In this document: positions 2,763 through 15,303 of the stretch, piece after piece
How positions within the stretch are numbered: position 1 is the first letter of the stretch
Layout of the letters: each line of letters starts with the position of its first letter
Source: Caldilineaceae bacterium
Lineage (GTDB): Bacteria; Chloroflexota; Anaerolineae; Caldilineales; Caldilineaceae
DNA length: 36,245 bases
Assembly (NCBI GenBank): GCA_023384495.1
Contig: JAHDWG010000008.1
Span: forward strand, 1-36,245
Direction of reading: 5' to 3'
Program-made: the position numbers and the translations under genes
The notes under the pieces: model-generated
Seen by the model: only the letters and a program-made list of their open reading frames with translations
Told to the model about the DNA's origin: nothing
The model's database searches: none

Positions 2763-5663
2763 ATGAGAACGTCACGGACAGACACCACCGTAGAGCAGCG
2801 TTCTATCCCCGATTGGTCGGGCCGCGACTGGATGTTGTTAGCCGGCCTCACCATCCTCGGGGGGGCGCTGCGCTTCTACAAGCTCGGCGAGACGCCACCG
2901 GGATTCCAGTTTGATGAAGCATTCAACGCCATCGACGCCGCGCAGGTGTTGCATGGCAACTTTCCTCTCTTTTTGCCCGCCAACGGTGGGCGGGAGGTGC
3001 TCTACACCTATTTCCAGGCGGCGCTGGGCGCGCTGATGGGTGTCAATGTCTTTACGCTCCGGCTCGCATCGACCCTGCTTGGCATTGCCACCGTGCCCGC
3101 CACCTATCTTCTGATCCGGCTCATTGTTCGTCGCCATAGCCGGATGGTCGCTACCTTTACCACCCTGGCGCTGGTCATCAGCGTGTGGCATCTGCATTTC
3201 AGCCATTATGGCATCCGGGTGATCACCATGCCGCTGCTCTTGAGCGTGCTCTTTGGCTGCTATTGGATTGGGCTATTGGGGCCTACTCGGCAGCGTCGAT
3301 TGCTGGCTATTGTGGCAAGCGGCGTCTTGATCGGCCTCGGCGTGTGGACCAACCCCACCGGACGGCTGGTTCCCTTTGTTCTGATCCTCTTCACGGCCTG
3401 GCTGGTGTGGCGTCACACGTCGGGGCCTTTGTGTGAACGCCGCTATGCACTGGACGGCCCGTTGGGCGCGTTGGCCCTGGCGGGGGCGGTCGCGCTGGTG
3501 GTCTTCTTGCCTTTGGGGCTTGAATTCTATCGCCACCCGGAGTGGTTCACCGGCCATGCCGCCGAAGTTTCCATCTTTGCAGATCGCGTGAGTCAGGGCC
3601 GCCCCGGGCAAACGCTGCTTGCCAACATAGGCCGCGTGCTGGGCATGTTCAGCATCGCCGGTGACCAGGAGTGGATACACGGGCCTGCCGGGCGCCCTGT
3701 GTTTGACCCATTGATGTCGATGCCATTTGTGTTGGGCGCCGGCATCTGGGGGTGGCGGCTGTGGCGACGTCGGCAGGATGACCCCGATGTGGATGCGCTG
3801 GCGCTGTTGGCCTTTTGGTCGCTGGTGATGCTGGCGCCTTCGGCCTTGAGCGACGCCGCCCCCAATTTCTCGCGCACGTTGCCTTCGCTCCCTGCCCTTT
3901 TTGTTGCGGCAGGCCTCGGGCTAGATTGGATCGCATCGTGGCGGGGCGCAACACCTGTCACCGCCCCCGGCGCGGCGCGCGGTTGGCGAATTGCGCGGCC
4001 AGGGTTGCTGGCCGCCGCGGCGATTGTCACCGCCAGCGGGGGCATCGCATTCTACGATTACTTTGTACGTTTCCCACAACAGCCCGAGGTCTATATCGCC
4101 TATGAAGCCAACAAGCTGGAGACGTTGCGCCTTCTCAATGCGCAAGCCGATCGATATGAGATCTACTTGCAGCCGCTGTGGGCAGACCACCCCCCAGTCC
4201 GCTTTTTTCGGAGCAGTGAGCTGGTCAAGGCGCTGGACACCGCCGATGCCTTCGTCTTGCCCCCGGTGGGCAAGGGGGTGATCTACGCCTACCCACCAGA
4301 GATGGCGGACGAGGCGGCGCGTGTCGCCGCGCTCTGGCCCGGCGCCCGTATCGAGACCCCGCTCGATCCCTATGGCGCGCCGCTCTATGTGCAGGTCAAA
4401 GTGGAGGCCGGCGAAATTGCAACCTGGCCGCCGGGATATGCCCCCGCCGAGCCAATCGAGGCCCGCTTTTCCGATGCGCCCACCCTGTTGGGGATGCAGC
4501 AAGGTCCGGGCCCCGGTGAGCTGACGCTCTTTTGGCGCGGCGAGGAACGCGAAACTGTCCGCGACCTCACCACCTTTGTGCATTTGCTCGACGAAAATGG
4601 TCGAAAGGTGGGCCAGATCGACAAACAGCCTGGCAACGGCAGCTACCTCACCACAGGCTGGGCCGCCGGTGAGCGAGTGATCGAGGAGTACACACCCGCC
4701 GTCACCGACCCGTGTGCAGGCGGCGATACGGTGCAGGTCTGGGTAGGCTGGTATGAGCTGGTCGCCGACGGCGCCCGCCGGCCCCGTTCCGATACCTTTG
4801 GCGATATGGCTATGGCCGGGCAGATGCTGTTGCCTATTGTGGGTCACTGGCCCGACGATTTGACCATCCCCAATGTTGTTGAGCAACCTCTAAACGATGT
4901 GTTGACGCTGGTGGGCTACGATATCCACACCGTTACGCTGGAGCCGGGCGCGCCCTTGGTGCTCGACCTCTATTTGCGCGGCGAGGATGCCGTCGCGAAC
5001 ACATGGCTTGGCCTGTTACTGTATGGCGAAGCAGGCGGGGTCGCCTCAAAAGAGCCGCTTTGGCGCGCTCCGGCTGCGCCGGGTGTGGTCTGGCCCCAGG
5101 GTGAGATCATTTGTCGCCGCGCCCGGGCGCGGCTGGCGCCTGATCTGCCGCCGGGGGTCTATCAGCTTGTGTTGGCTGGCCCTGCCGGCCATGCGCCCGT
5201 GACGGCGCTTACGGTTGCCCCATCGACGCGGCAGTTTGCGCCGCCGCCTGGCCTTACGTCGGTTGATGCATCGTTCGATCATGCGATAGAATTGGTAAGC
5301 TATGCCGTTGCGCCCGCTGCCGCGCCCGACGAAGGGCTGGAGGTGACGCTGGCGTGGCGGGCACTGCGCGAGCCGGCGGCAAGTTACACCGTGTTTGTCC
5401 ACCTACTCGAGGCAACCGGCGCGATCGTGGCCCAGTCGGATGCGCTGCCCGCCGGCGGCTACCCAACCGATCACTGGCTGGCCGGTGAGGTGGTGGTTGA
5501 TTCGCACTGGCTGCCGCGCCCGGTGGACGCTCCACCCGGCCCCTACCGGCTGGTGGCCGGCCTGTATGACGCTGCGCTCGGTGTCCGCCTGCCCGCGTTC
5601 GATGCCCAGGGCGCGCCGTTTGCCGATGACGCCGTTCTCTTGGGGGAAGTCACGCCCCCCTGA
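2763..5663 (+). CDS. GT39/PMT-type membrane glycosyltransferase with repeated C-terminal beta domains
   Basis: Polytopic protein of 966 residues. The N-terminal ~450 residues carry many hydrophobic helices. After the first one comes the acidic pair of the first external loop (FDEAF, Asp51-Glu52), as in the ArnT/protein O-mannosyltransferase (PMT_2) superfamily, whose members transfer sugars from polyprenyl-phosphate donors on the outer face of the membrane. The C-terminal ~500 residues are soluble and hold two related segments around residues 590-700 and 865-960. Each contains the pattern FVHLL, then a Gln-x-Asp, a Gly-Tyr/Ser-x-Thr, and a Trp-x-x-GE motif, suggesting duplicated beta-sandwich modules. 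The start ATG is 44 bp after the RND gene and has only a weak ribosome site, so co-transcription is plausible. Donor and acceptor are unknown. Confidence 0.85.
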   Translation: MRTSRTDTTVEQRSIPDWSGRDWMLLAGLTILGGALRFYKLGETPPGFQFDEAFNAIDAAQVLHGNFPLFLPANGGREVLYTYFQAALGALMGVNVFTLRLASTLLGIATVPATYLLIRLIVRRHSRMVATFTTLALVISVWHLHFSHYGIRVITMPLLLSVLFGCYWIGLLGPTRQRRLLAIVASGVLIGLGVWTNPTGRLVPFVLILFTAWLVWRHTSGPLCERRYALDGPLGALALAGAVALVVFLPLGLEFYRHPEWFTGHAAEVSIFADRVSQGRPGQTLLANIGRVLGMFSIAGDQEWIHGPAGRPVFDPLMSMPFVLGAGIWGWRLWRRRQDDPDVDALALLAFWSLVMLAPSALSDAAPNFSRTLPSLPALFVAAGLGLDWIASWRGATPVTAPGAARGWRIARPGLLAAAAIVTASGGIAFYDYFVRFPQQPEVYIAYEANKLETLRLLNAQADRYEIYLQPLWADHPPVRFFRSSELVKALDTADAFVLPPVGKGVIYAYPPEMADEAARVAALWPGARIETPLDPYGAPLYVQVKVEAGEIATWPPGYAPAEPIEARFSDAPTLLGMQQGPGPGELTLFWRGEERETVRDLTTFVHLLDENGRKVGQIDKQPGNGSYLTTGWAAGERVIEEYTPAVTDPCAGGDTVQVWVGWYELVADGARRPRSDTFGDMAMAGQMLLPIVGHWPDDLTIPNVVEQPLNDVLTLVGYDIHTVTLEPGAPLVLDLYLRGEDAVANTWLGLLLYGEAGGVASKEPLWRAPAAPGVVWPQGEIICRRARARLAPDLPPGVYQLVLAGPAGHAPVTALTVAPSTRQFAPPPGLTSVDASFDHAIELVSYAVAPAAAPDEGLEVTLAWRALREPAASYTVFVHLLEATGAIVAQSDALPAGGYPTDHWLAGEVVVDSHWLPRPVDAPPGPYRLVAGLYDAALGVRLPAFDAQGAPFADDAVLLGEVTPP

Positions 5664-12719: not shown

Positions 12720-13607
12720 ATGTTTGAAGCACTGGCAACTGCCCAGGCCTGCCTGCGTGCGGCCAAGCGAAGCGACCTCAGCCTGGCCGACCGGCTGCGG
12801 GCGATCAGCCTGATGGCCGATACGGTCGACCGCTACTTTATCGCCCACGCTCCTCACCCGACTGCGAACGCCGAGCGCGCTGTGCTAACCCCGGCTACGC
12901 CACCGCACGACGCCACGGTGCTGTTTGCGCCCCTGCTACACGACGCCACTCAGGTGTTGCGGCTGCAATTGGCGCCCCTGCTCTTCCAACATCACATCCG
13001 CTTGCCGTCGGTGGGCCAGTTGGGTGAGCAGCAGCAGGCCTGGTTGTTTGACTACTTTCAAGAGCATATCTACCCGCTGTTGACACCCCTGGCGGTGGAT
13101 CCGGGCCATCCCTTCCCCTATATCAGCTCCGACAGTATCAATCTGCTCATTCTGTTGCAACAGCCAGGAAAGTTCAGTACGCGCACGCTCTATGCGCGGC
13201 TCAAGGTGCCGCGCCAGGTTGTGCCTCGCATTATCGAGACGCCCCCGCTGGCCGCGGTCGATTCACCGGTGTTGCATCACGATGAAAACGAACGCTATTG
13301 GGTCTGGAGTGAAGAAGTCGTCCAGTATTTTGTCCATGAACTGTTCGCCGGCATGTCGGTAACCGGGATCTATCAGTTCCGCGTGTTGCGCGCCGGTGGT
13401 GCGGACAGGGCGGAAGGTGTGCGCGATAAGACTGCGCCCGTCGTCCGCGTCGACATTCAACATGACATGCCGCCGCCGGTGGCGCAGTGGCTTGTCTCGC
13501 GGCTGGAGGCGCCCTGGCAGTCGGTGATTCGCGGGCATACGCCTTTGAGTGTGGCCAACTGGGCCGACCTGGCCCGGCGGCTCGATGCGCTGCCTGTCAA
13601 GATTTGA
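12720..13607 (+). CDS. Polyphosphate kinase 1-like protein with N and middle domains only
   Basis: The 295 residues match the N-terminal helical and middle domains of PPK1. Around residues 110-145 it has YFQEHIYPLLTPLAVDP, then HPFPYISSDSINL. Around 205-225 comes FVHELFAGMSVTGIYQFRVL. The end (WQSVIRGHTPLSVANW) corresponds to the last part of the PPK middle domain. The two C-terminal phospholipase-D-like catalytic domains, which hold the autophosphorylated His and the ATP site, are absent: the normal enzyme has about 690-720 residues. The stop TGA at 13605-13607 falls cleanly at the domain border and no PPK coding sequence follows; a promoter for serS begins there instead. So it cannot be a normal kinase. 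It may be a polyphosphate-binding or regulatory protein, or a degenerating gene that is still open. Confidence 0.8.
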   Translation: MFEALATAQACLRAAKRSDLSLADRLRAISLMADTVDRYFIAHAPHPTANAERAVLTPATPPHDATVLFAPLLHDATQVLRLQLAPLLFQHHIRLPSVGQLGEQQQAWLFDYFQEHIYPLLTPLAVDPGHPFPYISSDSINLLILLQQPGKFSTRTLYARLKVPRQVVPRIIETPPLAAVDSPVLHHDENERYWVWSEEVVQYFVHELFAGMSVTGIYQFRVLRAGGADRAEGVRDKTAPVVRVDIQHDMPPPVAQWLVSRLEAPWQSVIRGHTPLSVANWADLARRLDALPVKI

Positions 13608-13632
13608 CGATTTGGACGCGCCGTGTTACGAT
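13604..13632 (+). promoter_or_regulatory. Strong sigma70-type promoter of the serS T-box leader
   Basis: TTGACG (13604-13609), 17-base spacer, TACGAT (13627-13632). The -35 box overlaps the stop of the PPK-like gene. Transcription would begin near 13639, just before the first leader hairpin (GATCTC-GAACA at 13641-13651 pairing with TGTTC and GAGATC up to 13669). Confidence 0.7.
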
Positions 13633-13640
13633 TTTTTACA

Positions 13641-13915
13641 GATCTCGAACAGAGAATGTTCTGGAGATCAGCCAAAGATTGACCACGTTGACAGAGGCCA
13701 CGACGCAGCGTTGGCTCCACACAGAGAGTTGCCGGCCGGTGCAAGGCAACAGGGAGCGCCCGTCAGAGCACCTCTCGAGTTCCTGGCAGGAAATGGCCGG
13801 GCGGTAGACGCCGTTACCGTTCAATGAGTCGGTAGCGCGCCTGCAAGGCCGCGACCGAAAAGTCAGGTGGCACCACGAATCCCTTCGTCCTGTAGTTTGG
13901 GCGAGGGGATTTTTA
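13641..13915 (+). promoter_or_regulatory. Serine T-box leader (tRNA-sensing riboswitch) of serS
   Basis: The T-box core AGGTGGCACCACG is at 13865-13877. Stem I has the conserved distal part: AGAGAG, stem TTGCC/GGCAA, and the loop GGCCGGTGCAA (13725-13749). Lower down, GGCTCC/GGAGC, GACG/CGTC and GAGG/CCTC pair. The 3' strand of the specifier loop is AGAGCA, and AGC at 13767-13769, followed by A and the lower stem, is a serine codon in the standard place. In the antiterminator, UGGC would pair with a tRNA end GCCA, which agrees with the G discriminator base of tRNA-Ser. Uncharged tRNA-Ser should therefore favour antitermination and raise serS expression. Typical T-box features K-turn and loop E were not clearly found. 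Confidence 0.92.
13878..13914 (+). terminator. T-box regulated intrinsic terminator
   Basis: AATCCCTTCGTCC (13878-13890) pairs, with G-U pairs, with GGGCGAGGGGATT (13899-13911), followed by TTTTT at 13910-13914. Its 5' arm is directly next to the T-box core, as needed for switching with the antiterminator. Confidence 0.88.
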
Positions 13916-14000
13916 ATTGACAATTGTCAATTGACAATTGTCAACGGTCAATTGCGAATCTTTCGTTGTCCCATTGTCTATCGTCAATCGTCTATCGTCC
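13916..14000. repeat. Heptanucleotide repeat tract, including a doubled perfect palindrome
   Basis: TTGACAATTGTCAA, itself a perfect palindrome, occurs twice in tandem (13917-13930 and 13931-13944). Degenerate 7-mers follow, and four clean ones ATTGTCT, ATCGTCA, ATCGTCT, ATCGTCC lie at 13973-14000. The period is 7 throughout and the same 7-mer recurs at 15526-15571 and 17874-17965. It lies between the T-box terminator and the serS ribosome site, so it is part of the serS 5' UTR. Confidence 0.8.
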
Positions 14001-14022
14001 AATCAGAAAGGAATGTGACACC

Positions 14023-15303
14023 ATGTTGGACATACGTTGGATGCGTGAAAATCGGGAAGCATTAGCTGAGGCCATGCGCAAGCTGAATGCCGAGGATGCA
14101 CCGTGGGAACGGGCGCTGGCGCTCGATGAAGAGCGTCGCGAATTGCTAACCCAGGTAGAGGCGCTGCGGGCGGAACGCAACACCGGTTCGAAGCAGGTGG
14201 GTGAGTACTTTCGCGAAAAGCGGGTGGATGAGGCCAACGCGCTCAAGGCGCGCATGAGCGTCATCGGCGACGAGATCGCCGCATTAGAGCAACGCCTGCG
14301 TCAGGTGGAGGCCGATTTCGACGACGCCATGCTCCGCATCCCCAACCCGCCCGAACCCGATGTGCCGGTGGCCCCCGATGAGGCGGGCAACCAGGTGGTC
14401 AGCACGTGGGGCGCGCTGCCCGAATTCGGCTTTTCGCCGCTGCCGCACTGGGATCTGGGCGAACGGCTGGGCATCATCGATATCGAGCGTGGGGTAAAAC
14501 TGGCCGGCACGCGCTTCTATTTGCTCATGGGGGCGGGCGCCCGGCTCCAGCGCGCGCTGAGCAACTGGTTTCTTGATGTACATATTGAAGAACATGGCTA
14601 CGAGGAGGTCTACCCGCCCAACATGGTGCGCACCAACGTCATGGTGGGCACGGGCAATCTGCCCAAGTTTGGCGATGTCCTCTATCGCGACGCCGAAGAG
14701 GACTTCTGGTTGATCCCCACGGCGGAGGTGCCCGTGACCAACATCTATCGCGATGAGATCATCCCGGCGGGCAAGCTGCCCATCAACCTGGTGGCGTCGA
14801 CGCCCTGCTTCCGCCGCGAAAAGGTGGCCGCCGGCAAGGATGTGCGCGGCATCAAACGGGTGCTCCAGTTTCAGAAGGTAGAGATGGTCAAGTTTGTCGA
14901 GCCGCACACCGGCCGCGACGAGTTGGAGACGCTGACGCGCAACGCCGAGGTGCTGCTTGAGCGGCTGGAGCTGCCCTACCGGCGTGTTGCCATTGCCACC
15001 GGTGATCTCTCGTTTGTTGCAGCGATCAAGTATGACCTGGAGGTCTGGGCGGCGGGCTGCGGAGAGTGGCTCGAGGTCAGCTCGTGCTCGTTCTTCCGCG
15101 ACTTTCAGGCGCGGCGGGCCAACATCCGCTATCGCCCGTCGGAGGGCGCGCGGCCCGAATATGTAAATACGCTTAACGGGTCGGGGCTGGCGCTGCCGCG
15201 GATCATCATTGCGCTGCTCGAGAATAACCAGCAAGCCGACGGTTCGGTGACAGTGCCCGAGGTGCTGCGCCCCTACATGGGGGGCATGACCACGATCCGG
15301 TAA
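14023..15303 (+). CDS. serS: Serine--tRNA ligase
   Basis: Class II synthetase that charges tRNA-Ser (and tRNA-Sec where present). It has 426 residues, the usual length. The N-terminal antiparallel coiled-coil arm that binds the long variable arm of tRNA-Ser covers about residues 25-105. The catalytic core holds motif 2 (TPCFRREKVAAGKDVRG) and motif 3 (NGSGLALPRIIIALLENNQ). The frame is open upstream to 13924, but ATG 14023 has AGAAAGGA about 10 bases before it and begins at the family's N-terminus (MLDIRWMRENRE). The gene is controlled by the serine T-box just upstream. It is a single-gene unit with a hairpin downstream at 15328-15371. Confidence 0.98.
   Translation: MLDIRWMRENREALAEAMRKLNAEDAPWERALALDEERRELLTQVEALRAERNTGSKQVGEYFREKRVDEANALKARMSVIGDEIAALEQRLRQVEADFDDAMLRIPNPPEPDVPVAPDEAGNQVVSTWGALPEFGFSPLPHWDLGERLGIIDIERGVKLAGTRFYLLMGAGARLQRALSNWFLDVHIEEHGYEEVYPPNMVRTNVMVGTGNLPKFGDVLYRDAEEDFWLIPTAEVPVTNIYRDEIIPAGKLPINLVASTPCFRREKVAAGKDVRGIKRVLQFQKVEMVKFVEPHTGRDELETLTRNAEVLLERLELPYRRVAIATGDLSFVAAIKYDLEVWAAGCGEWLEVSSCSFFRDFQARRANIRYRPSEGARPEYVNTLNGSGLALPRIIIALLENNQQADGSVTVPEVLRPYMGGMTTIR

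Follow-up and report, generated by a model that had tools for sequence, protein, structure and literature searches.

In bacteria, polyphosphate is made chiefly by polyphosphate kinase 1 (PPK1), whose control at the protein level is largely open. To our knowledge, no protein subunit of the regulatory pseudo-kinase kind is known for this enzyme. In Escherichia coli PPK1, the N domain comprises residues 2-106 and the H (or middle) domain residues 107-321 (PMC3163519). PPK1 monomers pair by packing the H domain of one against C1 of its partner; the M. tuberculosis enzyme was active only as a dimer (PMC3215733). CHAD domains also bind polyphosphate, and genes for stand-alone CHAD proteins often occur in polyphosphate operons (PMC6537752).

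Our results reveal a stand-alone gene for the N and H domains of PPK1 in a member of the Caldilineaceae. We refer to the short PPK1 homologues of this family as sPPK, and to the whole 36,245-nucleotide stretch of DNA that was analysed as the window. The evidence shows that sPPK is an ancient, family-specific paralogue of PPK1 that has kept the N and H domains, has lost C1 and C2, and has been maintained by selection beside an intact PPK1. The features of the locus are collected in Table 1.

Table 1. Positions of sPPK, its domain parts and the downstream features, in window coordinates.
Feature	Position	Strand	Remarks
sPPK gene (stand-alone PPK1 N + H domains, no C1/C2)	12720..13607	+	ATG start, 295 aa
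N-domain part of sPPK	12720..12990	+	residues 1-90, three long helices; Thr35 where PPK1 has an invariant Asn
H (middle) domain part of sPPK	13026..13607	+	residues 103-295, with motif YPLLTPLAVDPGHPFPYISS
Sigma-70-like promoter match, TTGACG-17-TACGAT with TG	13604-13632	+	consensus match only; overlaps the sPPK stop codon
Putative T-box leader of serS	13679-13895	+	RF00230, below the gathering score
serS, seryl-tRNA synthetase	14023..15303	+	ATG 14023; downstream neighbour conserved in relatives

The original prediction held that the gene encodes only the N and middle domains of PPK1, and Pfam, NCBIfam and an AlphaFold2 model all bear this out. Specifically, the sole Pfam domain found in the window protein was PF02503, the PPK middle domain (E 2.4e-35), and the NCBIfam model of PPK1 matched residues 9-285, ending at about position 316 of its 707. 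Both catalytic domains are missing, as had been predicted: there was no Pfam match to PF17941 or PF13090 (C1 and C2) in the protein, and when the genome's own full-length PPK1 was used as the query, no remnant of C1 or C2 was found anywhere in the window, the region past the stop codon included. The missing part is thus not merely frameshifted. Furthermore, the alignment to this PPK1 has its last aligned residue at the end of PF02503, about 32 residues before C1 begins, so the protein is cut cleanly at the boundary between the H and C1 domains. The codon-position GC of the gene is like that of its neighbours. With the catalytic domains absent, kinase activity would not be expected.

Recognition of the two retained domains was uneven. 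PF02503 was found in all 26 of the sPPK family members searched, and PF13089, the N domain, in 13 of the 26, the window protein not being among them. The prediction that both domains are recognisable therefore stands in full for the middle domain, while by sequence the N domain of the window protein is only weakly recognisable, yet its fold is present in the predicted structure. The AlphaFold2 model, built from aligned PPK1 and window-type sequences, reached a pLDDT of 87.3 and a pTM of 0.86, and its significant structural matches were PPK1 chains only, including those of Porphyromonas gingivalis (2O8R, residues 12-314, Z 27.7) and E. coli (1XDO, residues 11-310, Z 22.4). The N and H fold is common to the model and PPK1 over 240-266 aligned residues. 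We also considered a likeness of the H domain to the triphosphate-tunnel (CYTH/TTM) fold and rejected it, as the Foldseek matches were weak and absent from the output of a second aligner.

A family-wide search recovered sPPK in 34 of 46 Caldilineaceae genomes. In relatives, complete copies are about 310-378 aa long and lie at the same locus, next to serS; the orthologues are thus short there as well. No complete short homologue was found outside the family in samples of its class (396 genomes) and phylum (400 genomes), and named records of short homologues come from Caldilineaceae and Litorilinea. Two other matches at the cut-off of the phylum scan proved to be full-length frames of 741 and 761 aa, and short frames from the class scan (e.g., G057 and G084) were set aside as lying at contig ends or scoring like full-length PPK1. 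Separately, an Acidimicrobiia contig has an open frame resembling PPK1 that spans just 488 residues (L166:773-2236).

In a tree with 55 full-length PPK1s, sPPK formed one branch with an SH-aLRT support of 100, and its sub-groups mirror those of the full-length PPK1 tree. The tree was a quick one with some long branches, and the point at which sPPK joins PPK1 is not settled by it. Matching sub-groups within one branch indicate that the duplication or truncation happened once, close to the root of the Caldilineaceae, with vertical inheritance thereafter. As a separate observation, three genomes (G003, G004 and G013) have two full-length PPK1 genes each (L058, L060, L063, L072, L073, L074), and their second kind of PPK1 groups apart, near a PPK1 from Rhodothermales.

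Relative to PPK1, residues were lost, kept and gained. The N-domain asparagine equivalent to E. coli Asn45, which contacts ATP, is present in 40 of 40 full-length PPK1s and absent from all 24 complete sPPKs. The H domain of PPK1 has an acidic segment (NAD..E.DEADDLL..I) that in sPPK is missing or is a short variable loop; in the window protein, the loop follows residue 224 and replaces the acidic helix. Meanwhile, the core of the H domain, YPLLTPLAVDPGHPFPFIS, is kept in all complete copies, so that the middle-domain motifs are indeed still recognisable. In addition, sPPK has about ten conserved positions of its own that differ in PPK1 (e.g., S137, L143, P175, S197, F204, W257 and P265). Taken together, such a pattern speaks for a new role under selection rather than for decay.

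The relationship of sPPK to the full-length enzyme bears on what this role may be. The window's genome has a separate full-length PPK1, a 783-codon frame with 33% identity to sPPK, and full-length PPK1 was found in 32 of the 34 genomes that carry sPPK. The two exceptions (G309 and G376) most likely represent assembly gaps rather than loss of PPK1 with retention of sPPK, which would have spoken against a PPK1-dependent role, since in each genome the contig stops within the 5' flanking region of PPK1. In G024, inverted copies of a dispersed repeat of about 290 bases lie on both sides of the full-length PPK1 locus (L214:4723-5009 and L214:10283-10566); this repeat has dozens of copies in that genome and may explain contig breaks beside PPK1 in relatives. 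One genome rated 99% complete (G001) has neither sPPK nor PPK1. The pattern fits a dependence of sPPK on PPK1, yet weakly, because almost every genome of the family has PPK1 anyway. The reverse dependence does not hold: PPK1 is present and sPPK undetected in at least eight family genomes, so PPK1 does not need sPPK. A split enzyme, with C1 and C2 supplied by a separate protein, was rejected; no stand-alone C1 domain occurs in the 46 family genomes, where every C1 sits in a full-length PPK1.

We consider sPPK most likely to be a neofunctionalised pseudo-PPK1, acting as a regulatory partner of PPK1 or as a polyphosphate-associated protein. Its part in polyphosphate metabolism is probably one of regulation or assistance, not of synthesis, and the non-kinase role in polyphosphate or partner binding that had been proposed fits our observations. 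A free N and H protein would keep the H-domain surface of the PPK1 dimer contact, with which it could bind C1 in a PPK1 subunit; mixed oligomers might then change the activity of PPK1 or its placement on polyphosphate granules. That sPPK acts as a regulatory partner of full-length PPK1 is a tentative reading, to which we give slightly less than even credence. The fuller proposal, in which sPPK is a regulatory subunit dedicated to PPK1 and sets the synthesis of polyphosphate in a filamentous bacterial family through mixed oligomers held by the H-C1 contact, is possible but somewhat unlikely.

Alternatively, sPPK could work without touching PPK1, binding polyphosphate or another polyanion through basic residues of the H-domain sheet and serving as a granule or sensor protein. 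Six such residues (R160, K162, R170, R221, R224 and R243) are conserved at 96-100% in sPPK; however, the full-length PPK1s of this clade conserve them too, possibly for structural reasons. sPPK often carries a net negative charge, whereas known binders such as CHAD proteins are strongly basic, and the catalytic site of PPK1 belongs to the missing C1/C2 half. Gene order lends some weight to this reading and to that of a regulatory partner, as sPPK is linked to a gene for a polyphosphate-binding CHAD protein in one genus. In this genus, g8, which has the most genomes, the run CHAD - HD - LtaS-like - YceI-like - sPPK was seen in 12 of the 12 copies examined, with the HD gene not found by search in one genome (G318); gaps or overlaps between its genes are small, and sPPK comes last. 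The linkage is confined to g8. In the window, the gene upstream of sPPK encodes a Gfo/Idh/MocA oxidoreductase, and the genome's only CHAD gene sits on another contig. On balance, we regard a binder of this kind as unlikely.

A role away from polyphosphate, tied for example to serS or to envelope genes such as the LtaS-like and YceI-like ones, would accord with the loss of the ATP contact and with the sPPK-specific residues described above. Envelope-type neighbours occur in two genera, and serS follows sPPK in the same orientation in 20 of the 22 relatives with enough contig beyond it, mostly 340-720 bases from the sPPK stop codon. Yet serS is kept in genomes without sPPK, and the upstream neighbours of sPPK vary between genera. 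Moreover, serS looks independently controlled, because a promoter-like site and a putative T-box separate it from sPPK. The original prediction placed the start of the serS promoter at the sPPK stop codon, which is plausible given where the consensus match falls, although such a match is not proof. The candidate T-box of the window scored 80.5 bits over the full length of the model (E 5.5e-18), against an Rfam gathering score of 93; T-boxes at the same place in relatives scored 93-105 bits with RF00230, several of them above the gathering score, and about ten of 17 relatives examined have one between sPPK and serS. We consider a role unconnected with polyphosphate quite unlikely.

Three other observations concern the surroundings of the gene. 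Short tandem repeats, with units of 7 and 14 bases such as AATTGACAATTGTC and GTCAATC, occupy positions 13915-14004, past the T-box and ahead of the start codon of serS. At L040 and L046, from two genomes of a single genus, sPPK and serS are separated by inserted genes for an AAA-type ATPase and a small partner. Finally, a 966-residue open reading frame without any Pfam match (window positions 2763-5660) directly follows an AcrB-type transporter gene.

It could also be argued that sPPK is a functionless, degenerating relic of a PPK1 duplication. It evolves faster than PPK1, a point that also weighs against a regulatory partner; the dN/dS of PPK1 was lower in most pairs from the same genomes. 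Furthermore, sPPK was undetected in 12 of the 46 family genomes, some of which are incomplete assemblies. One of these (G004) documents a loss at the locus: the SNF2 helicase gene and small gene that precede sPPK in its relatives are kept, as is the serS that follows (L191:3339-10400), and sPPK is gone. Nevertheless, a value near 1 is not what we observed between copies. In nearly every unsaturated pair across three genera, dN/dS (Nei-Gojobori) was 0.06-0.28. The closest pairs of the best-sampled genus gave 0.096 (dS 0.19), 0.104 (dS 0.42) and 0.115 (dS 0.26), and the two other genera gave 0.17-0.28. The window copy has no close relative, and selection on it was judged by retained columns rather than by its own dN/dS: 32 columns do not vary among the remaining 23 complete copies, and the window copy matches 31 of them. 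No stop codon or frameshift was found inside complete copies, and the single origin at family depth also argues against a relic. Substitution patterns thus firmly support purifying selection on sPPK across the family, in agreement with the selection that had been predicted, and the gene is not a pseudogene; the relic reading is refuted for the family and highly improbable. The idea that a full-length gene was cut short by an assembly error or a frameshift has a negligible chance of being correct and is likewise refuted, for although the window's genome is fragmented (764 contigs), the same short gene recurs at the same place in independent assemblies, including the single-contig genomes G031, G318 and G393, and it is followed by the T-box and serS rather than by any remnant of C1 or C2.

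While the domains of PPK1 are known, a PPK1 paralogue that lacks the catalytic half and is under selection throughout a family is undescribed in the part of the literature that was searchable here, which held nothing relevant on truncated, pseudo or regulatory forms of PPK1. A catalytically empty paralogue kept through the whole history of a family offers a tool for uncovering roles of the N and H domains beyond catalysis, and it allows one to ask whether PPK1 has protein regulators. Compared with PPK1 itself, sPPK is alike in its N and H fold (E. coli 1XDO, P. gingivalis 2O8R) and in the H-domain motif of the PPK1 clade. It differs in having about 300 residues instead of about 700, with neither C1 nor C2 and hence neither the phospho-histidine nor the second catalytic histidine, and in lacking the asparagine of the ATP contact and the acidic helix of the H domain while carrying specific residues of its own. 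With CHAD proteins (PF05235), it shares a non-catalytic nature, a probable tie to polyphosphate and, in one genus, an operon-like run; the folds are unrelated, and the polyphosphate binding that is shown for CHAD is proposed for sPPK. Another parallel in kind is with the pseudoenzyme paralogues that regulate an active relative. Regulation by sPPK is our proposal, and its whole catalytic half is missing rather than point-mutated, but like them it is a dead paralogue held under selection beside an active enzyme.
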